Shown here: positions 1,426 through 25,661 of the stretch, piece after piece | How the letters are laid out: each line of letters begins with the position of its first letter | Position numbering within the stretch: position 1 is the stretch's first letter | Virus record (IMG/VR): IMGVR_UViG_3300021225_000101 | Span: 1 to 28,328 of that record | DNA: 28,328 nucleotides | Direction: 5' to 3' (one strand) | DNA from: a virus | The notes under the pieces: generated by a model | Database searches by the model: none | What the model was told of the DNA's origin: nothing | Seen by the model: the letters and a program-made list of their open reading frames with translations, nothing else | Made by a program: the position numbers and the translations under genes

Positions 1426-1710
1426 TTAACGGCTGGTGACCTTGACGCTGAACACGGCGGTGGTCTTTGTGAACTTGGCGTAGGCATCTGCGCCAAACTC
1501 TTTGATGAATGCGTCCTTGTCGAACACAGAACGGTTTGTCTCGGTGTAGGTGGCTTTGAACAACGCGCCTTCGACAACCTTAGCGCCGCCCTTGCTGGCG
1601 CTGTCCTTGATGTCGTCCTTGATCTTGTCAGCCTGCTTGGTGAGGTCTGCAATTTGTGCCAACAAAGCACCGAGAGTGTCTACGCTGTTGATGTTGAGAT
1701 CGTTGTTCAT
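1426..1710 (-). CDS. Conserved phage hypothetical protein, first gene of the left sub-operon
   Basis: 94 aa. Residues about 5-40 form a likely coiled coil (LGALLAQIADLTKQADKIKD). After it comes a KATYTETNRSVFDKDAFIKE segment and a closing AYAKFTKTTAVFSVKV. I recognise this layout (short coiled coil plus a beta-rich end) from many small phage proteins, but none with a proven activity. The ATG at 1710 has AAGGAA upstream within a GTGAAGGAAACAGCGAA leader. It follows the promoter at 1765-1792 directly, so it should be the first product of this transcript. Confidence 0.8.
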   Translation of the reverse strand: MNNDLNINSVDTLGALLAQIADLTKQADKIKDDIKDSASKGGAKVVEGALFKATYTETNRSVFDKDAFIKEFGADAYAKFTKTTAVFSVKVTSR

Positions 1711-3480: not shown

Positions 3481-3821
3481 ACTTCGCTCACTTTCACTTT
3501 CAACATTCCGCCGATGTTGTCGGCCCAATAAATTCGCAGGTCAACGATGTTGCTATCGTCCTCCCAAACATTTGCGTGGGTGCACCCATCGAGCACAGCC
3601 TTCAACAAATTGTCTAAATCGCGCCGCCTTTTATCTGGCCGCCACGCCTCGATCTCGACACGCATCTTGCCGCTGTATTGCATAGCGCAGTCTTGCTTTT
3701 CCACTTGCTCGGCCACCGACTTGCGATACTCGCGCCCCTTGGCTGAAATGATCATCCGGCCATTGAAGGTGCGCCAGTAGGTGTTGACCGATGGCGGCCA
3801 AGGCAATGTGATCTCAATCAT
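3477..3821 (-). CDS. rusA: RusA-type Holliday-junction resolvase
   Basis: 114 aa, close to the usual RusA length (about 120). It starts MIEITLPWPPSVNTYWR, the signature N-terminal strand with the PPSxNxYWR motif, and has the catalytic block RPDKRRRDLDNLLKAVLD (D68, D70, N71, K74, D78) followed by WEDDSNI (D88, D89). The acidic residues match the metal-binding aspartates of E. coli RusA. The enzyme cuts four-way junctions as a dimer and probably resolves recombination or replication intermediates before packaging. The start overlaps the previous gene by 8 bases. Its closest partners in this window are the Ref-like nuclease and the exonuclease at 8.2 kb. Confidence 0.95.
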   Translation of the reverse strand: MIEITLPWPPSVNTYWRTFNGRMIISAKGREYRKSVAEQVEKQDCAMQYSGKMRVEIEAWRPDKRRRDLDNLLKAVLDGCTHANVWEDDSNIVDLRIYWADNIGGMLKVKVSEV

Positions 3822-4047
3822 CGCGGTTTACCTGACGCTTGATTAGGTTGAAGGTCTCGTGATATGTGAACTCCACTACCTGATTGAGCATTGCCTCGAA
3901 CTGCGCTGGCGTAAACATGAACAGGCGACCAACCATTGGCGGGAACTCTTCCACTGCTGGATAAGTCACCTCCACTTGTTGACCATAGTCATTCACCAAG
4001 TCGTTTTGCGTGATCTGCTCAAAAATTCTTTTGTGTTTCAACATCAT
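3814..4047 (-). CDS. Small hypothetical phage protein
   Basis: 77 aa, with two adjacent Met codons (4047 or 4044 as start). The ATG at 4047 overlaps the upstream TGA, so 4047 is preferred. The middle contains the AVEEFPPMVGRLFMFTPAQF stretch and the end is helical (QVVEFTYHETFNLIKRQ). I see no domain that I can name. It sits directly before rusA, overlapping it by 8 bases, so the two are probably co-translated. Confidence 0.65.
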   Translation of the reverse strand: MMLKHKRIFEQITQNDLVNDYGQQVEVTYPAVEEFPPMVGRLFMFTPAQFEAMLNQVVEFTYHETFNLIKRQVNRDD

Positions 4048-4331
4048 TGCCTCTGTGCTGGAATACGGTTCAGGATGTCATTGGCAAGGGGTGAGTTGAA
4101 GTTCTCATCATCCTCTTTGCCAGCCAGTTTGGCCTCATAGGCATAAGCCATCTCTGCGCACGCTTGGCGCTCGATGAAAATGGCCTGCTTCGTGGTTTGT
4201 ATAGCCACAGCCATGATCTCGGCCTTGGCCTGCGCCAGCGCCTCCTCAAACTCCCGTGCAGTGAATAACTGTTGACCAGTGCCCTGCGCAAAAAACTTCT
4301 TTTGAAAATCTGTCAATTCAACTTTGCTCAT
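4044..4331 (-). CDS. Hypothetical helical phage protein
   Basis: 95 aa from the ATG at 4331, beginning MSKVELTDFQKKFFAQ. The ATG forms an ATGA overlap with the upstream stop; a GTG two codons earlier is less likely. The protein is long helical and alanine-rich (REFEEALAQAKAEIMAVAIQ), then acidic (KEDDENF) with a NDILNRIPAQRQ end. It contains no known motif. Function unknown. Confidence 0.7.
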   Translation of the reverse strand: MSKVELTDFQKKFFAQGTGQQLFTAREFEEALAQAKAEIMAVAIQTTKQAIFIERQACAEMAYAYEAKLAGKEDDENFNSPLANDILNRIPAQRQ

Positions 4332-4570
4332 TTCCACTCTCCTTGGTTACCTCGGTTACCTTTAGACCATTGGTCTCTAACATCTTTTTCAAGGTTCGAT
4401 TCGGGATGAAGTTCGTTCCACCCTTTAATCCACCTCCCACTGTTATTACTGTAGCCATTGAGCCAACGGTATGCACTATCACGATCTTTAATGCGCATCT
4501 TGATGACCTCCCGAACGAGACAACGGTACATATGCTCACGGACTCCAACGGCTTCTTCCTCGGCATTCAA
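4328..4570 (-). CDS. Hypothetical phage protein with a TTG start
   Basis: 80 aa, read from a TTG at 4570 that overlaps the helicase stop as TTGA, with GGAGGGAG at a good distance upstream. The sequence includes YRCLVREVIKMRIKDRDSAY and RWLNGYSNNSGRWIKGWNEL, a Trp- and Arg-rich pattern that looks like a real folded protein. The ATG-starting competing frame at 4566 gives a low-complexity Gly/Val product and breaks the ATGA chain, so it is rejected. Function unknown; it may assist the helicase that precedes it. Confidence 0.65.
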   Translation of the reverse strand: MNAEEEAVGVREHMYRCLVREVIKMRIKDRDSAYRWLNGYSNNSGRWIKGWNELHPESNLEKDVRDQWSKGNRGNQGEWK

Positions 4571-5565
4571 AATCTCCCTCCGTTATCAAAAGCCATCGGC
4601 ACGCTGTCAGCGTTCTCGACAAACTGTTGGCTGTCTTTGTGATACCAAAGGTGATACCACTCTTCGGCTTCACCATTGCGTTGCTTCTCGCACATCAACA
4701 TTGCATCTGGTGTCTTGATGTCGACCATCTTGCCCTGCTGTGCATCGTGCTCTTTTTTCTTGTTGCGCCACATGAGCAAAACATTGTCAACTTGGTCAGC
4801 AATCGCGCCCGTGCCCTTGATGTCGTTTTTGTTCGGCATCATCTCTTCATTCGCCAACTTGCGAATGTGATGGATCAAATGCACATGGATGTTGTGGTCA
4901 CGCGCCAGCGCGGTAATGGCATCAACAAAAGCCTTCTGTGCGTTGTAGTCGTCTTCACCAGACACACACTTCATCAATGAGTCAATGAAGACATGAGTCA
5001 CACCCAACTCGAGTGCGCAGTAGCGGGCCATCGCAATCACCTGCATCGCTGAGGTTGTGCCCTGCTGGTCATACAGCCACAGGTTGTCACCACAGAAGTC
5101 ATCAAAGCGCTCTGCTATGCGACCGATGTACCGCTCCTTGTCCATGTAGCGTGGCTTGCTGATGTCCTCGCCAGCGAACTGACGCATCATGCGGTACAGC
5201 GTGCGCTTGGGCTTCATCTCAAACGACGCGATGCAAATGCGTTGCTTTTGCTTGATCAGACCCAGCGCCACTTGACCTGTGATCATGGACTTGCCGCCAC
5301 CGTTAGAGCCAGCGTACAGCGTGACTTCACCGGGGCGATAGTTGAAACTGTGAACCGACTTGGCCCACGGCATACTCGAGACCTGCTCGACCTTGGGGTT
5401 GACCACATCGTCGATGATCTCGGCGAGGTAATCTTTTGCAACCCGCACCTTCAGGTGCACATCACTGGGTTCGTAGTATTGGTCGACATCAAAGTCGTCA
5501 GGGCCAAACTCTCGGCTCTGGCGTGACTCGTCGAGTCGTTGTGCTATTTGCTCGAGGTCAGACAT
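4567..5565 (-). CDS. Replicative DNA helicase, DnaB / T7 gp4 helicase-domain type
   Basis: 332 aa. After a non-conserved N-terminus (1-70) comes a RecA-like motor: Walker A GSNGGGKS at 86-93, a SFEM motif with Glu117, Walker B HVFIDS at 191-196, then VHLIHHIRK (228-236) and KGTGAIADQVDNVLLMWRN (250-268), the usual DnaB/Twinkle end with an arginine-bearing EKQRNGE loop. It is about 120-140 residues shorter than DnaB because the N-terminal DnaB domain is missing. It should form a hexamer that unwinds DNA at the phage fork. The primase-like gene lies directly upstream (8-base overlap) as a separate protein, in contrast to T7 gp4 where the two are fused. Confidence 0.93.
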   Translation of the reverse strand: MSDLEQIAQRLDESRQSREFGPDDFDVDQYYEPSDVHLKVRVAKDYLAEIIDDVVNPKVEQVSSMPWAKSVHSFNYRPGEVTLYAGSNGGGKSMITGQVALGLIKQKQRICIASFEMKPKRTLYRMMRQFAGEDISKPRYMDKERYIGRIAERFDDFCGDNLWLYDQQGTTSAMQVIAMARYCALELGVTHVFIDSLMKCVSGEDDYNAQKAFVDAITALARDHNIHVHLIHHIRKLANEEMMPNKNDIKGTGAIADQVDNVLLMWRNKKKEHDAQQGKMVDIKTPDAMLMCEKQRNGEAEEWYHLWYHKDSQQFVENADSVPMAFDNGGRF

Positions 5566-7984: not shown

Positions 7985-8230
7985 ATGTTTATTTCAAACA
8001 CAGAACGCATTCAACTTAGAAAAGACATCGAGGCACTGAGCAAAATTGTCGGTGACTTGAACGCTGAAATTTTGTATTTGAGTGCCAAAGTCAAAGTGCT
8101 TGAGGGCAAAAAAGCCAAGCCAAAAAAGCAAATGACCGAGGCTCAACGCGCCAAACAACGCGAGTACGCAAAACGCTATCAAGCAAAAAAACGAATGGAG
8201 AAGAAAAATGGTAACAGTCTCAGCGCCTAG
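7985..8230 (+). CDS. Coiled-coil protein with a basic tail
   Basis: 81 aa. Residues 1-40 form a strong coiled coil (RIQLRKDIEALSKIVGDLNA, EILYLSAKVKVLEGKK). Residues 41-81 are very basic (KKAKPKKQMTEAQRAKQREY, AKRYQAKKRMEKK), suggesting nucleic-acid contact. TTAAGGAC lies about eight bases before the ATG at 7985. It overlaps the exonuclease start by 23 bases, so the two are likely co-translated. The combination fits a small DNA-binding accessory protein, but no family is recognised. Confidence 0.75.
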   Translation: MFISNTERIQLRKDIEALSKIVGDLNAEILYLSAKVKVLEGKKAKPKKQMTEAQRAKQREYAKRYQAKKRMEKKNGNSLSA

Positions 8231-9008
8231 AGCCAGCGAGAGCAATCACTGGTACACCCGCGATGGTGTGCCGCAGTACACCGTAGAAGCCGCAAAGGGG
8301 GGCCAGCGTGCCACTACCCTTCGTGACGCACGCAAGTTAAACTTGGTGCCCAGCGTTACTACGGTTTTAAATGTCGCCGCAAAACCCGCCCTGCTTGCTT
8401 GGATGCAACAACAGGTGCTGTATGCGGCGCTAACCCTTCCACGCCGCCCCGACGAACCTGAAAAGGAATACATAGACCGAATCATCAACGATTCCAAAGA
8501 ACAGGGTCGCTCGGCGGCGGATGCTGGAACTGACATCCATGCATCCATTCAAGGACACTATGAAAACAATCCAACAGGAAAACACCACGAGAGTGTTACA
8601 GCCTGTGTGCAGTCAATCAAAGACCACTTTGGAGACCACGACTGGGTCTCAGAGCGTGCATTCGCACATGAAGCGGGTTTTGGAGGTAAGTGCGATCTAT
8701 TTGTGCCTGTCACCTCTAACTGGCAGACCACTCACGACCCCGACTTCCACGGAATCGTTGTCGACATCAAGACCAAAGAATTCACCGACCCAGCAAAGGT
8801 CGACGCCTACGACGAGCACCTTATGCAACTCGCGGCATATCGAGTTGGTATAGGCATTCCCAAGGCACGATGCGCCAATGTGTTCGTGTCTCGCAATGTC
8901 CCCGGCTTAGTCGTTGTCAAAGAATGGCAGGCCGATGACTTGGATCGCGGCTGGGGAATGTTCATGCATCTCCTGTCGTTCTGGCAAATGAAAAATCAAC
9001 ACCAATGA
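8208..9008 (+). CDS. PD-(D/E)XK exonuclease (phage recombination type)
   Basis: 266 aa. A nuclease core is visible: AGTDIHASIQGH (107-118, with H111), EAGFGGKCDLFV (155-166, catalytic D163), GIVVDIKTKEF (182-192; D186, K188) and HLMQLAAYRVG (204-214, Q207). The order H..., GGKxDL, VxDIKT, QLxAY is that of the RecB-like / Cas4-like / phage exonuclease superfamily. It probably degrades duplex DNA 5'-3' or processes ends to make single strands for the SSB-like protein two genes upstream. The ATG at 8208 has GGAGAAG upstream. No annealing protein of the Beta, Erf or RecT type was recognised in this window. Confidence 0.88.
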   Translation: MVTVSAPRASESNHWYTRDGVPQYTVEAAKGGQRATTLRDARKLNLVPSVTTVLNVAAKPALLAWMQQQVLYAALTLPRRPDEPEKEYIDRIINDSKEQGRSAADAGTDIHASIQGHYENNPTGKHHESVTACVQSIKDHFGDHDWVSERAFAHEAGFGGKCDLFVPVTSNWQTTHDPDFHGIVVDIKTKEFTDPAKVDAYDEHLMQLAAYRVGIGIPKARCANVFVSRNVPGLVVVKEWQADDLDRGWGMFMHLLSFWQMKNQHQ

Positions 9009-17158: not shown

Positions 17159-18976
17159 TTATCCCGGTTTCTTTGCTTTGTTCAAAATTGATGTCAGGGT
17201 TGCCATGTTTGAAACTGGAGTTAATTTAGTTACATCCATTTTCGCAGAAGGCATGACAGGAGACACTGTTTTCTTTGCCACAGGAATCAACTTGCTCACA
17301 TCCATTTGAATTGGAGGTCTAGTTGGTTTTGCCGAGGCAACCTTCATGGCGGCCAATTGAGCCGCTGTAGGCTGTGCCCTTACTGGAGCCTTGGCAGAAG
17401 TCATTGGCTTGGTCAGACCTTTGGTCAACGCAGTTTTTGCCTGCCCCTTGATCACGGAAGTCAATTTATTCACAAGAGCCGTAGTTCCTGCGCCTGCGGC
17501 TCCAGCGGCCCCAGCAGTTGCTGTTGCGTCTTTTGCCGCACCCTTGGTTGTGTCTTCACCTTCGGTTTGCGCTTTTTCTTCGCCAATTGTTGAGAGCACA
17601 TCTGAGCCACCACCAGAGGTCGTGTCAGTTGCGGCAGTTGTTCCAGTGGTGTCACCAGCCGCCGCGACCTGATTCAAGCCACCAGTTGTAGTAGTTGTGA
17701 CAGGCAGTTCGCTATCAGTCGTGGTGGTTGCCGCAGTGGTTCCACCAGTTGTGGTATCAGCAGTAGAAGTTCCGCCCACAATGTCATCAATTGTTCTGTC
17801 AACATCTTTTTCACCAGTCAGAGTTGTTGCGGCAGTTGTGTCGCCAGCCTTGGTGGTGTCAGCCTCAGTGTCAGTGCTCAAAACTTGATTCAACCCACCA
17901 GTTGTGGTCAGGTCTTCGTTCTTCGCATCGTTTTCGGCCACCGCAGACAAGCCACCTTCAGTCGAACCAGTCTTGGTAACGCCCTCTTGATCTTCGCCAG
18001 TAATGGAGTCATCAACACCAGAAGATTTTGTGAAGTCAGAGACAGCGTTTGCACCTTGATTGATGACCTCACCAATACCAAGATTGAGCAGGCCAGTAGT
18101 TGCATCTTTGCCAGTCACCACGCTATTGGTCACGCTAGATGCGGCCTTGCCCACAAGGTCAGACCCAGTCTCGTCCGCCACTTCGCTACCAACAACTTTG
18201 CCCAAGGTTGAGCCAGCAAGGCTGGTTAGATTGATGTCGCCAGTGGTCACCAATTGTTTTGCGGCATTCGATGCAACATTACCAGCCAAAGTAGAGCCAG
18301 TCACATCGGCAACTTCAGCACCAAGGAAACCAGTGCCAAAAGACAAGCCAGTATTCAGCAGAGCCTTTTCAAAGTCGCCGCCATTCGTCGCAGTGTTCAC
18401 TGCAACTTGACCTGCAAGTTTTTGCAAAGTTGAATCAGCGCCGGGGGCCAATGTCTCGCCAATAGTCTGCACAATATTTTGTGCGCCAGAGGACAGGGTG
18501 TTCCATGCGTTTGAGAGGCTTTCGGTCGCGGTGCTTGCAACCTCGGTCAATGTGCTGGTTTCAACAGCGCCAGCAGTGGCAGAGGACACAGCCTCAGCAA
18601 CCGTTGCGCCTTCAGCAGTCAGTGATGCCGCAGTAGTTGCCTCAGCGACTGTAGCGCCAGCCTCAATAACAGTAGCGGCGGCGGCAGTCTCTGCGCTGGC
18701 AACAGCCGTAACGGTTCCAGTTGCTTCAAGCACAGCGGCTCCAGCCTCAACAGCCTCGGCGGCTCCAGCGACTTCTAGCGCCCCGACAACGCCAGCCTCG
18801 GCGGCCAAAGCGCCAAGTGCATACGGCGCGGCAATCGCGGCCACAATGAGTAACGGGTTTTCTGCCACGGTGTCAATGACCTTTTCGGCAACATTCACAA
18901 CCTCTTCAAGTACATCACCAACAGCGTCGACGACATCTTCGACGACATTGACAATTGCGCGGACTACAGCGGACAT
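17159..18976 (-). CDS. Large Ala/Thr/Val-rich virion protein
   Basis: 605 aa. Residues 1-45 are helical and Val-rich (VVRAIVNVVEDVVDAVGDVL), then a very Ala/Thr/Val-rich region to about 180. Residues about 200-320 contain near-repeats such as LAGNVASNAAKQLVTTGDI and DLVGKAASSVTNSVVTGKDA, followed by Thr/Gly/Asp-rich disordered sequence and a final basic part (KTALTKGLTKPMTSAKAP; MDVSKLIPVAKKTVS). No enzyme motif was found. The start at 18976 is a TAATG overlap with the GNAT-like gene. It probably belongs to the ejection apparatus with the next four genes. The hydrophobic helices could contact the membrane, and so could be a target for modification by the upstream cassette. Confidence 0.75.
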   Translation of the reverse strand: MSAVVRAIVNVVEDVVDAVGDVLEEVVNVAEKVIDTVAENPLLIVAAIAAPYALGALAAEAGVVGALEVAGAAEAVEAGAAVLEATGTVTAVASAETAAAATVIEAGATVAEATTAASLTAEGATVAEAVSSATAGAVETSTLTEVASTATESLSNAWNTLSSGAQNIVQTIGETLAPGADSTLQKLAGQVAVNTATNGGDFEKALLNTGLSFGTGFLGAEVADVTGSTLAGNVASNAAKQLVTTGDINLTSLAGSTLGKVVGSEVADETGSDLVGKAASSVTNSVVTGKDATTGLLNLGIGEVINQGANAVSDFTKSSGVDDSITGEDQEGVTKTGSTEGGLSAVAENDAKNEDLTTTGGLNQVLSTDTEADTTKAGDTTAATTLTGEKDVDRTIDDIVGGTSTADTTTGGTTAATTTTDSELPVTTTTTGGLNQVAAAGDTTGTTAATDTTSGGGSDVLSTIGEEKAQTEGEDTTKGAAKDATATAGAAGAAGAGTTALVNKLTSVIKGQAKTALTKGLTKPMTSAKAPVRAQPTAAQLAAMKVASAKPTRPPIQMDVSKLIPVAKKTVSPVMPSAKMDVTKLTPVSNMATLTSILNKAKKPG

Positions 18977-19425
18977 TATTTGTGCTCCCTTGCTGGGCCA
19001 AGTTGCAAGGTGACCTGCATTCCACCGTCTTCAGTCTTTTGGGCCACATAGCCCATTTTTTCACGCACAGGATTGCGTGAGATAACCTTGAAGATTCCAA
19101 GAAGACTTGTATCATTGAATTGGGTCACCACTACATCAAAGCCAACTTTGTATGCGGCGTCAGCAAATACTCGACCGCTCTCAATAAAGTTGCGTGGTAC
19201 ATCAGCATTCAGGGCGCGGAAATAACCGTAGCCGGGGTATTTGGTTTTGTGCACCACAAAAATGGTATTGCCGTGTTGCATCTTCCAAACATTGGGCATA
19301 CTGAATTCAATGGTCAGCATCTCCTTGACCTCTTTAAAAGGTCTGCCCACCTTGGTGTTGGCGGCGGCGATACCAATGATCTCCTCGCTCGTCAACTTCC
19401 GCTGTTTGCTGTCTACCATTTCCAT
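18976..19425 (-). CDS. T7 gp13 / GNAT-like protein beside the ketosynthase
   Basis: 149 aa. The core shows HGNTIFVVHK (51-60), a helix (RVFADAAYKVG, 85-95), the strand DVVVTQ (97-102), FNDTSLLGIFKVIS (103-116) and MGYVAQKTEDGG (124-135). The order strand, helix, strand with NxxS, then GYxxxxxxxGG is GNAT-like, and is like T7 gp13, a small internal virion protein with the same fold. I see no clear acetyl-CoA-binding loop (Q/RxxGxG/A). The ATG at 19425 directly follows the ketosynthase stop (TAA then ATG), with AAGGGA upstream. An acyltransferase or an inactive structural relative are both possible; the first would fit the acyl-carrier gene two genes upstream. Confidence 0.6.
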   Translation of the reverse strand: MEMVDSKQRKLTSEEIIGIAAANTKVGRPFKEVKEMLTIEFSMPNVWKMQHGNTIFVVHKTKYPGYGYFRALNADVPRNFIESGRVFADAAYKVGFDVVVTQFNDTSLLGIFKVISRNPVREKMGYVAQKTEDGGMQVTLQLGPAREHK

Positions 19426-20535
19426 TTACATTCCCTTCAGTATCGCGGCGGAGTAGATATTTCCCATGCCAGCCGCCAAACTGAGAATAAGCCCATCAGG
19501 CGGGCTTACTGGTTCCGACAGGAAAACCTTATCGGTTTCTGTACGGTTTTCAATGGCAGGCACAACGCCTTTTTTAATGTCATCCAACAGCAAAAGGGTC
19601 TCCAAAAGACCACTCGCGCCCATCGTATGACCGATTTTTTGTTTGTATGAGGTGGCGACAAACTCTTTCAGCGTGTTTTCCAACGCTGTTTTCTCCGCCA
19701 GATTGTTAGATTGTGTCCCAGTTCCGTGTGTTTTGACAATAGAAATCTGGTCTGGAATGACATCAGAAACGGCCATAGCGCCTTCAATTGCCTTGACGAA
19801 GCCTTCGCCATCTTCACACTGTCCAATTGCGTTTGTGGACGATTCTGACGCGCTGTAGGCACCAATCAGTTTGGCGCGGGGATAGATGTCTGACTTTTCA
19901 ATGACTCGGTCGGAATCAAACACCGCAAAAGCGGCCCCTTGACCGACATGGAAGCCGTAATTCTTGCTGTCAAACGCAGAAGGCAAAAAGCCAGCCTCCT
20001 CCTCTTTGGCAGATAAGGTAGCCCGTGCTTCTCCAAAGAACTCTAGCACAGCATCTGACACGCCGTCCTCAACCGTGAGCACAATTACCCGGTCAAATTT
20101 GTAGAACTTGATCAGCGTTTGGACATCCATTAAGGTTTTCAAACTGCTGGCACAAGCCGATGAATCTGTCACCACATGGTCGCAAGCGCCACAGGCTTGC
20201 GCGATCCTGCCAGCGTAGACCTGAGTCAGCGTGAAGGGCAAGAACTTGTATTGGTAGGTCAGGCGGGTGTTGTAGGGGCGCTGGCTGATGCCTGCAAAGT
20301 GAGCATTACCGCCAGCAAGGATAAATGCAGTCTTGCCCACAGGGTTCTCGCGCAGGTGCTTCATCAACTCAGGATCAAGCACTTTTTCGGCTACTTTATG
20401 GGGGGCATAGAAAAGCCCACTTTTGGAGCGGGCGTAGGTGTCAGGGAACCAATTTACCCTTTGAGGGTAGACGATGTCGTCGAATAACTCGACATTTGTT
20501 GTGGAGGCTGTTCGGTAGTGGGTCAAGTAGATCAT
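19426..20535 (-). CDS. Beta-ketoacyl-ACP synthase (FabF/KAS-type condensing enzyme)
   Basis: 369 aa. All three catalytic residues are present: Cys128 in TDSSACASSL, His270 in VKTHGTGTQSN, and His303 in KIGHTMGASG. This Cys-His-His set is that of condensing KAS I/II and polyketide ketosynthases (not KAS III, which has His-Asn). FabF of E. coli has about 413 aa, with Cys163, so roughly 35 residues are missing before the catalytic Cys and the N-terminal start has no usual VVVTGxG opening. The end (LAAGMGNIYSAAILKG) differs from the usual GFGGTN. It should join acyl and malonyl groups on ACP by decarboxylation. It is coupled to ACP by an ATGA overlap at 20532-20535. No ketoreductase, dehydratase or acyltransferase genes are nearby. 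Confidence 0.92.
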   Translation of the reverse strand: MIYLTHYRTASTTNVELFDDIVYPQRVNWFPDTYARSKSGLFYAPHKVAEKVLDPELMKHLRENPVGKTAFILAGGNAHFAGISQRPYNTRLTYQYKFLPFTLTQVYAGRIAQACGACDHVVTDSSACASSLKTLMDVQTLIKFYKFDRVIVLTVEDGVSDAVLEFFGEARATLSAKEEEAGFLPSAFDSKNYGFHVGQGAAFAVFDSDRVIEKSDIYPRAKLIGAYSASESSTNAIGQCEDGEGFVKAIEGAMAVSDVIPDQISIVKTHGTGTQSNNLAEKTALENTLKEFVATSYKQKIGHTMGASGLLETLLLLDDIKKGVVPAIENRTETDKVFLSEPVSPPDGLILSLAAGMGNIYSAAILKGM

Positions 20536-20819
20536 TTGATCTGCTCCTTGGCCTTCTCCACTGACTCTGGCTCGGTTGTCTTGTTTGCCATCATCAGGTC
20601 ATAAACCTCTTGCACAGTGGTAGGGTGCCAGCCTTTTGTCTCGTCATTGTCTGGGATGCCGTAGAGTTCACACAGATACATCATCATCACCAAGCCATCG
20701 AGGCTGTCAAGCCCAAGGTCGGCCATCTTCTCTTCCATCGCCGTGGCTGGCGTAAAAGACATATGCACAGGCTTTGCAACCTTTGCCACCATGTTGAAGA
20801 GTTCAATGAAGTCGATCAT
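20532..20819 (-). CDS. Acyl carrier protein
   Basis: 95 aa from the ATG at 20819, which overlaps the previous stop as ATGA; the longer open frame is not used. The site for the phosphopantetheine arm is Ser39 in LGLDSLDGLVMMM, with the canonical D-S-L and the helix II pattern DSLDGLVMMMYLCELYGIP. Helix I (FIELFNMVAKVA) and the late helix (TTVQEVYDLMMANK) also fit. The final ~15 residues form an extra charged tail. It needs a phosphopantetheinyl transferase; none is in the window, so the host AcpS is the likely supplier. Its only clear partner in the window is the ketosynthase downstream. Confidence 0.9.
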   Translation of the reverse strand: MIDFIELFNMVAKVAKPVHMSFTPATAMEEKMADLGLDSLDGLVMMMYLCELYGIPDNDETKGWHPTTVQEVYDLMMANKTTEPESVEKAKEQIK

Positions 20820-21076
20820 CCCACTCGTGCCTCTGTTGGTTGATTTATAGCGCCAACAATTGCTTGCGCCCAATCCTGCCAATTATCAAACACATATGGG
20901 CCGGGAATGCCTTCGTTCACAAAAACATCAATTGCCTTTAAACCAGCCGCCCACTCTTTCCAGTTCTCTTCCCCGGCTGGGATGGATAACTGCTGGCCTG
21001 CATACGCCTCGCACATGAGCGATGCCCATGAGTCCCAAGTGTGGAAGCGAGGATCGTAAACAAGCGCCAGTGCCAT
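20816..21076 (-). CDS. Small tryptophan-rich hypothetical protein
   Basis: 86 aa from the ATG at 21076, chosen because the GGAAG ribosome-binding site precedes it and it starts directly after the hub gene's stop; the longer frame overlaps the hub gene more. It has ALVYDPRFHTWDSWASLMCE, EENWKEWAAGLKAIDVFVNE and YVFDNWQDWAQAIVGAINQP, with six Trp. It is acidic and helical. The stop overlaps the ACP start (ATGA). No known family; it may be a tail or assembly protein, or a partner of the acyl cassette. Confidence 0.7.
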   Translation of the reverse strand: MALALVYDPRFHTWDSWASLMCEAYAGQQLSIPAGEENWKEWAAGLKAIDVFVNEGIPGPYVFDNWQDWAQAIVGAINQPTEARVG

Positions 21077-21077
21077 A

Positions 21078-22910
21078 TTAACTTCCGTAAGGGCGTACAT
21101 CGCCCACATTGGCACTCAGCAAGACTCTACCCATCTGGTAGTCGCCATCCTGAACATTGCTGGTAAAGCGCAAACGCAATTCGCGTCGCTGTTCGCGCAT
21201 ATCAATCTTGCCCGTATTGGGGCTAAACACATAAGGCGTGGAGGTTACATCTGTGCCTTGAGCAAACGGCCTACCAGTCACTTGCAAACTCATGTCGCCA
21301 GACTGAATGAAGTCAGGTTCAACACGCTCAAGATGCAACCAGAAGTTTTCTCCAACACCGCCTTGAGGAACTTGCGGAGATTGGCTCGGGCCACCGCCAA
21401 CCCATCCAAGGTCAGAGGTCTCAAAGTAAGACTCAATCGCATCAATGTTCTGGCCGTTGATTGCGTTTGTTCCAATTTCGTGTTGCCACAAAGTGATGCG
21501 GCCAGCAGTCGTATTGAATGTGGCCGTGACGGTTCCAGACGCTGTAGCATCTTCACTTAGCGTGACCGTGTAATAACCAGCAGTCGCACTAGGTGCAATT
21601 GCAATGATCAAAGAGTTGTCAGCGATACCTGTGCCAATGACCAATTGACCCAATGAAATTTGGTTGGTAACAGGAACTTCAATTGCTGGGTTCCCGCTGA
21701 CCGTTGTCACCGTTGCAGAAAAAATCTCTTCTTGAGTTGATAGGTCTGTTCCAGCATTGATGGGGTACTTGAACACTTGAGAGAAATATCCAGCAGTGCG
21801 ACGAGCACCAAGAGCCTGTCCACCGTCATACCAACAGTTCTCGCGGATGTTGTAGATCACGCAATCGTTGCACTCTTCGCTGTCGCCAGAAGGGAAGAAC
21901 CACCAAATCTCGCCAAAGCGAGGAACCTTTTGTGCCCACACTTTTTGACGCTGTGCATAGTTCAGATTGTCAAAGAAGTAGTTCTGGTTCATGGTGTTTG
22001 GAATTTCCTTCACAACACCGTTGTAGAGCAAGAAGCGGTCAACGCCACACCAGTAGTAGATGCCGTCATACTCAATGACAGACTGCGACGACAAGATAGA
22101 CGACTGGCTGGAAATAATGTCATACCGCCAGTAAAAAGTCTGAGGCGTGCCACCCACCGTAATTGTGGTGGGGTTGTATGAAACTCGGATCAATGAGTCC
22201 AAAGACCAGAACAATCCAGATGGAGCGTTTGAACCGCCTCGAACTGGCAAGCCTTTGACAATTTTGGTTGATGCCACATTGGTCTCATTGGCATCTGCGC
22301 CGTTCCAGTTGTATGGATCGCCAGCGGCTGAATTCTTGATCAGGCCGTTATCTCCATACACAAACACATACGGGTGCAAAACAACCACGCCGCCAGAAAC
22401 TTCAATTGGGTCTCCAGTAGGCGTTGGGCCAGCAGAGTCTGTGAGTTGGGCCATCGTTGTGCCGTTGATGTCACCAGCCAATACTGGGGTCACAACAGTT
22501 TGGTCAATCTCAGCCAAATTCTGTCCGGGATGGGCAAGCAACAATTGATTGCCAGAGCCTTGTGAATCAAACAAAGAATCAAACTGCCACAGATTCAAAT
22601 CTGAAGGCGTGAAGTTTGATAGCGTAAATTCGCTCACGCCAGCACCAACACCGTTGTTGTCAATGTTGATGACTTCAAGGCCATTGTTGTAGCCGTTGAA
22701 AATCTGGTTGATGCCGTCTACAGAGTTGACATAGATGCCTCGAGAATATCCCAACGCATCATTTGTAATTGAGCGGTAGCCCCAAATCTTGCGAGGACGA
22801 CCACGCTGGAATCTAACCCAGCGGCCATCCGTATAAAAGTTTTTGTCAAAGACAGTGCCGTCCCGCTGTACACCGGGAAGGGTGTCAATCGAAAAAACTT
22901 TTTTTGTCAC
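21078..22910 (-). CDS. P22 gp10-like tail hub / DNA-stabilisation protein
   Basis: 610 aa, GTG start at 22910 (GTGA overlap with the previous gene). The N-terminal KVFSIDTLPGVQRDGTVFDK, GRWVRFQRGRPRKIWGYRS and WSLDSLIRVSYNPTT are typical of P22 gp10-like hub proteins, which form a beta-propeller hexamer that closes the portal channel and carries the tail needle or fibres. Residues about 388-465 look like an inserted beta domain (EEIFSATVTTVSGNPAIEVP up to ATASGTVTATFNTTAG), unlike the propeller around it. The C-terminus has ELRLRFTSNVQDGDYQMGRV. It is among the key pieces of evidence for a podovirus. Confidence 0.85.
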   Translation of the reverse strand: MTKKVFSIDTLPGVQRDGTVFDKNFYTDGRWVRFQRGRPRKIWGYRSITNDALGYSRGIYVNSVDGINQIFNGYNNGLEVINIDNNGVGAGVSEFTLSNFTPSDLNLWQFDSLFDSQGSGNQLLLAHPGQNLAEIDQTVVTPVLAGDINGTTMAQLTDSAGPTPTGDPIEVSGGVVVLHPYVFVYGDNGLIKNSAAGDPYNWNGADANETNVASTKIVKGLPVRGGSNAPSGLFWSLDSLIRVSYNPTTITVGGTPQTFYWRYDIISSQSSILSSQSVIEYDGIYYWCGVDRFLLYNGVVKEIPNTMNQNYFFDNLNYAQRQKVWAQKVPRFGEIWWFFPSGDSEECNDCVIYNIRENCWYDGGQALGARRTAGYFSQVFKYPINAGTDLSTQEEIFSATVTTVSGNPAIEVPVTNQISLGQLVIGTGIADNSLIIAIAPSATAGYYTVTLSEDATASGTVTATFNTTAGRITLWQHEIGTNAINGQNIDAIESYFETSDLGWVGGGPSQSPQVPQGGVGENFWLHLERVEPDFIQSGDMSLQVTGRPFAQGTDVTSTPYVFSPNTGKIDMREQRRELRLRFTSNVQDGDYQMGRVLLSANVGDVRPYGS

Positions 22911-24789: not shown

Positions 24790-25131
24790 TTATCCGACAT
24801 TACGCTCAAAATGCGGGCAATCAACCAAAGATTTAAAGTTGCCTCCCCAGCGGTTTTTAGGGTGCAAAGATTCCCAAAATGTACCCAGCGGAGCAAGTGT
24901 GCTCTTGTCCCATATTATCTGCCCATCCTTAAAGAAATTCAAGTCGATGGCGCACCTTTTCAGGTGATTGGAATTAAGGGTCTTTGAGCGCCCAGTTTGT
25001 ACATAAATGGCTTGCTGTTCGGCTGTTCTGAACAGTTCGCCGCCAGTAACCACAAAGCCTTGCTCTGTAGCGTATTGAATTAGTTTGCAGGCATCAAGCA
25101 AAAATGCCGCTTGTTCTTGGCTGAGACTCAT
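24790..25131 (-). CDS. M15-family (VanY/L-alanyl-D-glutamate) peptidase, endolysin
   Basis: 113 aa. The zinc-site motif SNHLKRCAIDLNFF gives His56 and Asp63 with the usual HxxxxxxD spacing, and PHFE gives His107, with Asp104 as probable catalytic acid. GELFRTAEQQAIYVQTG and NRWGGNFKSLVDCPHFE match the M15_4 endolysin pattern. It is a small single-domain enzyme, without a signal peptide or cell-wall binding part, and should cut the peptide stem of peptidoglycan once the holin lets it through. The ATG is in an ATGA overlap with the holin gene. Confidence 0.9.
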   Translation of the reverse strand: MSLSQEQAAFLLDACKLIQYATEQGFVVTGGELFRTAEQQAIYVQTGRSKTLNSNHLKRCAIDLNFFKDGQIIWDKSTLAPLGTFWESLHPKNRWGGNFKSLVDCPHFERNVG

Positions 25132-25661
25132 TGAGAACCCCCAGCCATCTTGTTGATGGTTTCATCTTTCTCCCTGGAGCCACGGGTTGTGCCAAACTCA
25201 AAGGAGTAGATGTTGTCCAAGTAGCCAAGGAAACGCCCCAAAACAAGCGTAAAAATGCCTTTGACATACTCGTTTATGCCTTGGTCTTTCCAGACAATCC
25301 AGACCAATCCAGCAACCGCCATGACCGCCAAAAAGAACATAAGGTTGGCTCGGCTATTGACCGCTCCACGCTTGATGAACTCAGCATCACGAACACGGGC
25401 GCTGTCGCGGTCTTTGGACTCTTCCTTGAAGGTCTCAAGTTCTTGTCGAGCCTTTTCAATGCTTAACTCAATCAACCGCTCTTCGTGGTCAAACTGCGCT
25501 TGGCGCAACTTGGCAATGTCTTCTGGGCTTGGGTTATCAGGGATGTCTACCCCAAGCGTGTCCTCAACAACCTGCTTGCCCTTTGCTTGGATGGCAGATG
25601 ACAAAAGACCCAAGCCGTTTGAGGCAAGGGTCGTGAGGAGGGAGGCAAGTATTGGAATCAA
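25128..25661 (-). CDS. Holin-like three-span membrane protein
   Basis: 177 aa from a TTG at 25661 that overlaps the upstream TGA (TTGA). It has a hydrophobic N-terminus (IPILASLLTTLASNGLGLLS), a long charged coiled coil (residues 50-100), then two spans: ANLMFFLAVMAVAGLVWIVW and IFTLVLGRFLGYLDNIYSF. This arrangement matches the 3TM holin family named for gene-transfer-agent release. It should open the inner membrane for the endolysin that follows. The lack of an ATG may keep expression low. Confidence 0.8.
   Translation of the reverse strand: MIPILASLLTTLASNGLGLLSSAIQAKGKQVVEDTLGVDIPDNPSPEDIAKLRQAQFDHEERLIELSIEKARQELETFKEESKDRDSARVRDAEFIKRGAVNSRANLMFFLAVMAVAGLVWIVWKDQGINEYVKGIFTLVLGRFLGYLDNIYSFEFGTTRGSREKDETINKMAGGSQ

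Follow-up and report, generated by a model that had tools for sequence, protein, structure and literature searches.

We found that a gene pair encoding an acyl carrier protein (ACP) and a ketosynthase (KS) in the IMG/VR virus record IMGVR_UViG_3300021225_000101 (positions 1 to 28,328; this whole stretch of 28,328 nucleotides is hereafter called the window) forms one inseparable unit of two proteins that is predicted to act in condensation. The ACP gene (95 amino acids [aa]; positions 20532 to 20819) and the KS gene (369 aa; positions 19426 to 20535), the latter encoding a predicted beta-ketoacyl-ACP synthase (KAS) of the FabF/KAS I-II class, lie on the minus strand, as do the other genes of the same block described below, and are joined by an ATGA stop/start overlap (positions 20532 to 20535). 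With a probability of about one half, we consider the pair to be an auxiliary module for condensation that depends on host enzymes and gives the phage its own chain-elongation step. This module is supported by the intact catalytic residues and carrier serine, by the fact that the two genes are never apart, by strong selection, and by the occurrence of the pair outside the virion block. An earlier note on this DNA had described the pair as part of a cassette together with a GNAT-like gene directly downstream and an 86-aa gene directly upstream, and had suggested that the set could acylate an ejection protein or make a signal molecule. The coordinates given there, S39 of ACP, C128/H270/H303 of KS, both ATGA overlaps, the TAA-ATG junction, and the overlap with a 605-aa gene were all confirmed in the sequence, and the arrangement turned out to be far wider in spread than first described.

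Relatives of KS are encoded on at least 575 IMG/VR contigs, as judged by a pattern scan, and 164 distinct KS sequences were pooled from six IMG/VR scans. The loci were picked for their likeness to either KS or the GNAT-like protein, and the fractions given here apply to this family, not to phages generally. An ACP gene was located directly upstream of the KS gene in all 161 loci whose flank reaches that far, and the −4 overlap (ATGA) between the two genes was kept in 79 of 82 loci. The distances of ACP and KS correlate at r values of 0.89 to 0.90, in keeping with a single unit. The ratio of nonsynonymous to synonymous substitution rates (dN/dS) was approximately 0.08 for ACP, KS, and the GNAT gene (12 pairs; the values are approximate, several pairs having a dS near or above 1). 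ACP and KS are under strong purifying selection, and conservation together with dN/dS ruled out chance open reading frames (ORFs). Among annotated phages, a tblastn search gave one close relative of KS, MW202545 (65%). In that record (MW202545.1), the annotated start of the KS gene (L002:12001-13101) leaves out roughly 156 bases, and the ACP is labeled hypothetical; the record is named Siphoviridae, yet its adaptor and nozzle genes are podovirus-like. A single GTDB scan for cellular relatives gave one match, on a contig with capsid and ejection-type genes. Besides, matches H2 to H16 in a phages collection (Listeria, Enterococcus, Staphylococcus, and Pseudomonas) are unannotated records with 23 to 29% identity to KS, and we set them aside as probable bacterial fabF genes in assemblies.

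KS was matched by the Pfam families Ketoacyl-synt_C (E value, 8.6e-16) and ketoacyl-synt (1.8e-9) and, in PHROGs, by phrog_35856 (2.4e-42). Its best curated neighbor in NCBIfam is FabF (TIGR03150), with AmcF (NF058662; E value, 2.6e-27) second, and its score of 102.7 bits against the TIGR03150 cutoff of 493.75 places it outside the FabF equivalogs. The AlphaFold model of KS (predicted local distance difference test [pLDDT], 92; predicted template modeling [pTM] score, 0.93) has a thiolase-type ketosynthase fold, and a Foldseek comparison with the PDB put FabF and type II polyketide synthase (PKS) ketosynthases on top (E value, ~1e-22; TM score, ~0.8). KS is about 40 residues shorter than FabF, the shortfall being in the N-terminal half. 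C128, H270, K298, H303, and E312 were invariant in 28 diverse members, and Cys/His/His was kept in 164 of 164 distinct KS sequences (two pattern misses were checked by eye). The protein thus has the Cys-His-His triad and the supporting Lys of KAS I/II enzymes; as judged by these residues, it is probably a decarboxylating, FabF-like condensing enzyme and looks active.

Taken alone, the window ACP was a weak match to PF00550 (E value, 0.095, under the cutoff), and against TIGR00517 it gave an E value of 3e-5, with a score far under that model's cutoff. The family as a whole was more telling: PF00550 was matched by 26 of 38 members (best E value, 3e-4), a profile of the family recovered solved ACPs (best E value, 9e-5), and each of the 161 ACPs encoded next to KS has the DS[LM][DE] carrier motif. 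In the window, the DSL phosphopantetheine site lies within an ACP-like profile, and the phage ACP is predicted to be a phosphopantetheine carrier via S39 in GLDSLD.

The GNAT gene (149 aa; positions 18976 to 19425), in contrast to ACP, is a frequent but separable neighbor of KS. It lies directly downstream of the KS gene in 147 of 156 testable loci (~94%); ten loci had been flagged as lacking an adjacent GNAT gene, but one of these (L284) is truncated at the end of its contig, so that nine of 156 remain. These nine represent two lineages (L203 and L302 types), in both of which the pair is located in the early/replication region. In L203, it lies between genes resembling an exonuclease-type gene of the window (positions 8208 to 9008) and window positions 1426 to 1710, on the strand opposite the ejection-type genes. 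An asparagine-synthase-like gene (L203:2961-3776; PF00733 E value, 5.8e-12) and a methyltransferase-like gene are also found near this relocated pair. In the L302 type, ACP-KS directly follows an SNF2/DEAD helicase gene. A 39.8-kb genome of this type, G019, carries ACP-KS with replication genes (positions 3714 to 5101, plus strand) and the GNAT gene about 20 kb away in the virion block, directly after the nozzle gene (positions 24800 to 25297, minus strand). No long KS-positive contig was seen to be without a GNAT gene.

The GNAT gene also occurs without the pair. No KS was found anywhere in contigs L095, L104, L105, and L107, which are partial genomes. The 86-aa gene directly adjoins the GNAT gene in L095 and L104, with nothing between, and a DUF4214 protein fills this slot in L105 and L107 (L105:4063-5001 and L107:4261-5553; 312 or 430 aa, ending GGLNS...KR). 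The GNAT proteins of these four contigs form one supported clade (98/91) nested beside that of the window, which fits a single loss of ACP-KS, and they keep 10 or 11 of the 11 near-invariant columns of the family. A long stem (0.37 changes per column) leads to L104, L105, and L107, and it is possible that the GNAT protein changed faster there after ACP-KS was lost. Relaxation after the loss was unsupported, however: despite this long stem, a single near-invariant column changed (F112A, in three of the four). Thus, the tight coupling of ACP, KS, and GNAT proposed in the earlier note holds for ACP and KS, which are never apart, but not for the GNAT gene, which is separable in two lineages and in the pair-less clade.

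A search for a phosphopantetheinyl transferase, which gave a match in 10 of 14 control genomes, gave none in 16 long contigs, and no other fatty acid synthesis family of Pfam, including a reductase or dehydratase, was found in the two long genomes scanned. These results agree with the earlier remark that free fatty acid synthesis enzymes are absent, argue against a full fatty acid pathway in the phages scanned, and imply that the host must activate and charge ACP. In the auxiliary module that we propose, a host phosphopantetheinyl transferase would activate the phage ACP during infection, host FabD would load malonyl groups, and KS would condense an acyl with a malonyl unit on this carrier; reduction of the product might then be left to host FabG/FabZ/FabI, and the product could end in host lipid or another acyl acceptor. 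The sequences suggest that these phages may build or extend acyl chains during infection.

Several points weigh against this auxiliary module. GFGGTN is the usual gate motif, whereas in our own comparison KS reads HGTGTxSNN, and AAGMGN where this gate would stand; its substrate may therefore differ from that of FabF. The condensing activity of KS is itself a prediction. Besides, that KS has an ACP of its own hints at a product held separate from the host pool, in better agreement with a specialized product than with a simple boost, and the location of the pair beside ejection genes in most lineages is unexplained by a plain metabolic role. Since the need for a carrier of its own suggests that the product or the acceptor is a distinct one, models of acyl transfer and of small-molecule synthesis keep real probability.

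The first of these models depends on the nature of the 149-aa protein. Its AlphaFold model (pLDDT, 92) has the topology HH-EEE-H-E-H-EE, which is the element order of the GNAT fold with the first strand reduced. The PDB matches of the model were nearly all GNATs, although modest (E value, ~4e-4; TM score, ~0.55), and its BFVD matches include "Internal virion protein A" and "putative acetyltransferase." GNT..F and NAD are near-invariant motifs of the family. No GNAT sequence profile matched the 149-aa protein in Pfam, PHROGs, and NCBIfam searches, and no gp13-family match was obtained in Pfam (44 members) or PHROGs. The T7 gp13/GNAT-like identity assigned earlier is therefore retained as a likeness of fold (AlphaFold and PDB) and position but not of sequence profile. 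The suggested likeness to HlyC-type or LuxI-type enzymes was not borne out, both families being unmatched by the 44 GNAT-like members in Pfam at E values up to 1. CoA-dependent GNATs have a pyrophosphate loop, Q/RxxGxG/A (strand 4/helix 3), which is absent here (window, RALNADVPRNF; consensus, RALNADTARNY); because GNATs using acyl-ACP are likewise without this loop, its absence does not decide between the models. The GNAT-like gene is best explained as encoding a virion-block protein of the gp13 type, which usually follows ACP-KS but does not need it.

The GNAT-like protein might nevertheless move a KS-made acyl chain from the phage ACP to an ejection protein (e.g., the 605-aa protein) and thereby aid membrane penetration, a tentative idea to which we give a low but real probability. 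The active-looking KS with its own ACP and the GNAT fold encoded next to it in most loci are in its favor. Furthermore, G019 retains both genes though they are unlinked, and this, together with the lack of any GNAT-less long KS-positive contig, leaves room for an acyl-ACP-dependent GNAT. The distances of ACP, KS, and GNAT also correlate with one another (0.82 to 0.89 over 65 loci), and poorly with those of the 86-aa gene and nozzle. However, over 31 loci, GNAT follows the N-terminal part of the next, 605-aa-type virion gene best (r, 0.94), ahead of ACP (r, 0.88) and KS (r, 0.86), and linkage thus explains the ACP-GNAT correlation; coevolution of ACP and GNAT as partners was rejected on this ground. 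The correlated distances fit a module inherited together and do not prove physical partnership. Acyl transfer is also at odds with the unmatched HlyC and LuxI profiles, with the pair-less GNATs and their conserved columns, and with phage MW202879 (nozzle, 24%), in which a 124-aa "putative acetyltransferase" stands at the same place after the nozzle and no KS match was found. The earlier note had held beforehand that relatives carrying the pair away from the GNAT gene would speak against acyl transfer, and ACP-KS lies among replication genes in two lineages. Given the relocated pair and the conserved GNAT without a pair, acylation of virion proteins is possible but not favored. It is likewise doubtful that ACP, KS, and GNAT make up a viral acylation system that passes an acyl chain from a private carrier to an ejection protein or other target, which would be the first encoded by a phage.

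It is unlikely, though by no means negligible, that the output of ACP-KS is not membrane fatty acid but a specialized small molecule, such as a beta-ketoacyl signal, a pyrone, or a similar compound. A dedicated, never-separated ACP resembles the logic of type II PKSs, whose ketosynthases are among the top Foldseek matches, and AmcF, the second-best NCBIfam match, is of similar length and performs a single C2 extension (PMC10698177). Yet FabF outscores AmcF, and no chain-length-factor partner, adenylation, cyclase, or tailoring gene was found in the two genomes scanned with Pfam. Slightly less probable still is that ACP-KS blocks or diverts host fatty acid synthesis by binding host enzymes of the type II pathway or acyl intermediates. 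Such a block would need no further phage enzymes and matches the early location in some lineages, but a binding decoy would not need the Cys/His/His and Lys that are strictly kept. A role of ACP and KS as packaged structural components of the virion is very improbable. Such a role would fit most loci, where the pair is flanked by the nozzle gene and the ejection genes, but the pair lies outside the virion block in two lineages, one clade lost it, and its catalytic residues are strictly kept.

The 86-aa gene (positions 20816 to 21076), an ORF between the nozzle gene and ACP, is joined to the latter by a second ATGA overlap (positions 20816 to 20819), which is kept in 75 of 81 loci. Although the overlap that led the earlier note to join this gene to the cassette is real, the gene belongs to the virion block and lies outside the ACP-KS unit. 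Its distances do not track those of ACP, and among 63 internal loci whose KS is more divergent, 26 carry ACP-KS-GNAT but no 86-aa gene. In Caulobacter phage GB2A (nozzle relative, 42%), conversely, the nozzle gene is followed by gp066, a homologue of the 86-aa protein by profile, and then directly by an ejection-type gene, while ACP, KS, and GNAT are all missing. The 86-aa gene was therefore ruled out as part of the cassette. The protein resembles three Trp-rich helical repeats; a similar pattern was seen by eye in a 115-aa gene at the same place (L158:9361-9708), and L159:10530-10766 was grouped with these two.

Upstream of the 86-aa gene, positions 21078 to 22910 encode a nozzle/stabilization-type virion protein (phrog_3287; E value, 2.5e-21) that matches proteins in the nozzle position of MW202545 and of Caulobacter phages. 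On the other side, the KS and GNAT genes meet at TAA-ATG, and a single-base overlap (TAATG) joins the GNAT gene to the 605-aa gene (positions 17159 to 18976), whose product is predicted to be an internal virion/ejection protein from its position downstream of the GNAT gene and ahead of ejection-type genes. Among the ejection-type genes of a 61.6-kb relative (G014), one ORF alone (L170:2405-14401) encodes about 4,000 aa.

Phage ACPs were formerly reported singly, as possible auxiliary genes, with no partner enzyme through which their role could be tested. The present family supplies both halves of a condensing pair, which strong selection maintains across hundreds of uncultured aquatic phages, usually beside DNA-ejection protein genes. 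The natural variants (pair near ejection genes, pair among replication genes, and pair lost with GNAT kept) correct the idea that the cassette necessarily serves the virion, and through them one can examine whether phages redirect the lipid synthesis of the host or produce an acyl compound of their own.

We found no paper in the open-access literature describing a phage KS-ACP cassette, and phrog_35856, the same KS family by profile, is given no function in its library. With FabF/KAS II (TIGR03150; 4ddo, 1ox0, and 1kas), the phage KS has in common the fold, the Cys-His-His, Lys, and Glu residues, and the ACP-dependent condensing class, but FabF has about 410 aa against 369 in the phage KS with its short N-terminal half, and identity in structural alignment is about 20%. 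AmcF of cispentacin biosynthesis is near the phage KS in length and acts on a dedicated ACP (PMC10698177), but it needs a partner, AmcG, and a 2-oxoglutaryl-ACP ligase, neither gene type was seen in the phages scanned, and the AmcF score is far under the cutoff. In line with this, Pfam gave one KS match and no ligase in two genomes, which differs from a cispentacin-type type II PKS, the own profile of a chain-length-factor-like partner not having been searched. T7 gp13 and gp13-like GNATs have the same fold class and nozzle-to-ejection slot as the GNAT-like protein, apart from the missing Pfam match. The closest precedents come from other phages. In Alteromonas phage R22Y, ACP has been proposed as an auxiliary metabolic gene along with a CobS-like gene (PMC11705849; phrog_5934), but no ketosynthase was named, whereas ACP in this family is always paired with KS. 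In three Rhodobacteraceae prophages, fabG-acpP-fabF has been described (PMC8224337); ACP is beside a FabF-type KS there too, but fabG is included, whereas the phages studied here have a divergent, phage-specific KS and no fabG. Thus, phage ACPs were already known, and what is new here is their constant pairing with KS in hundreds of phages.

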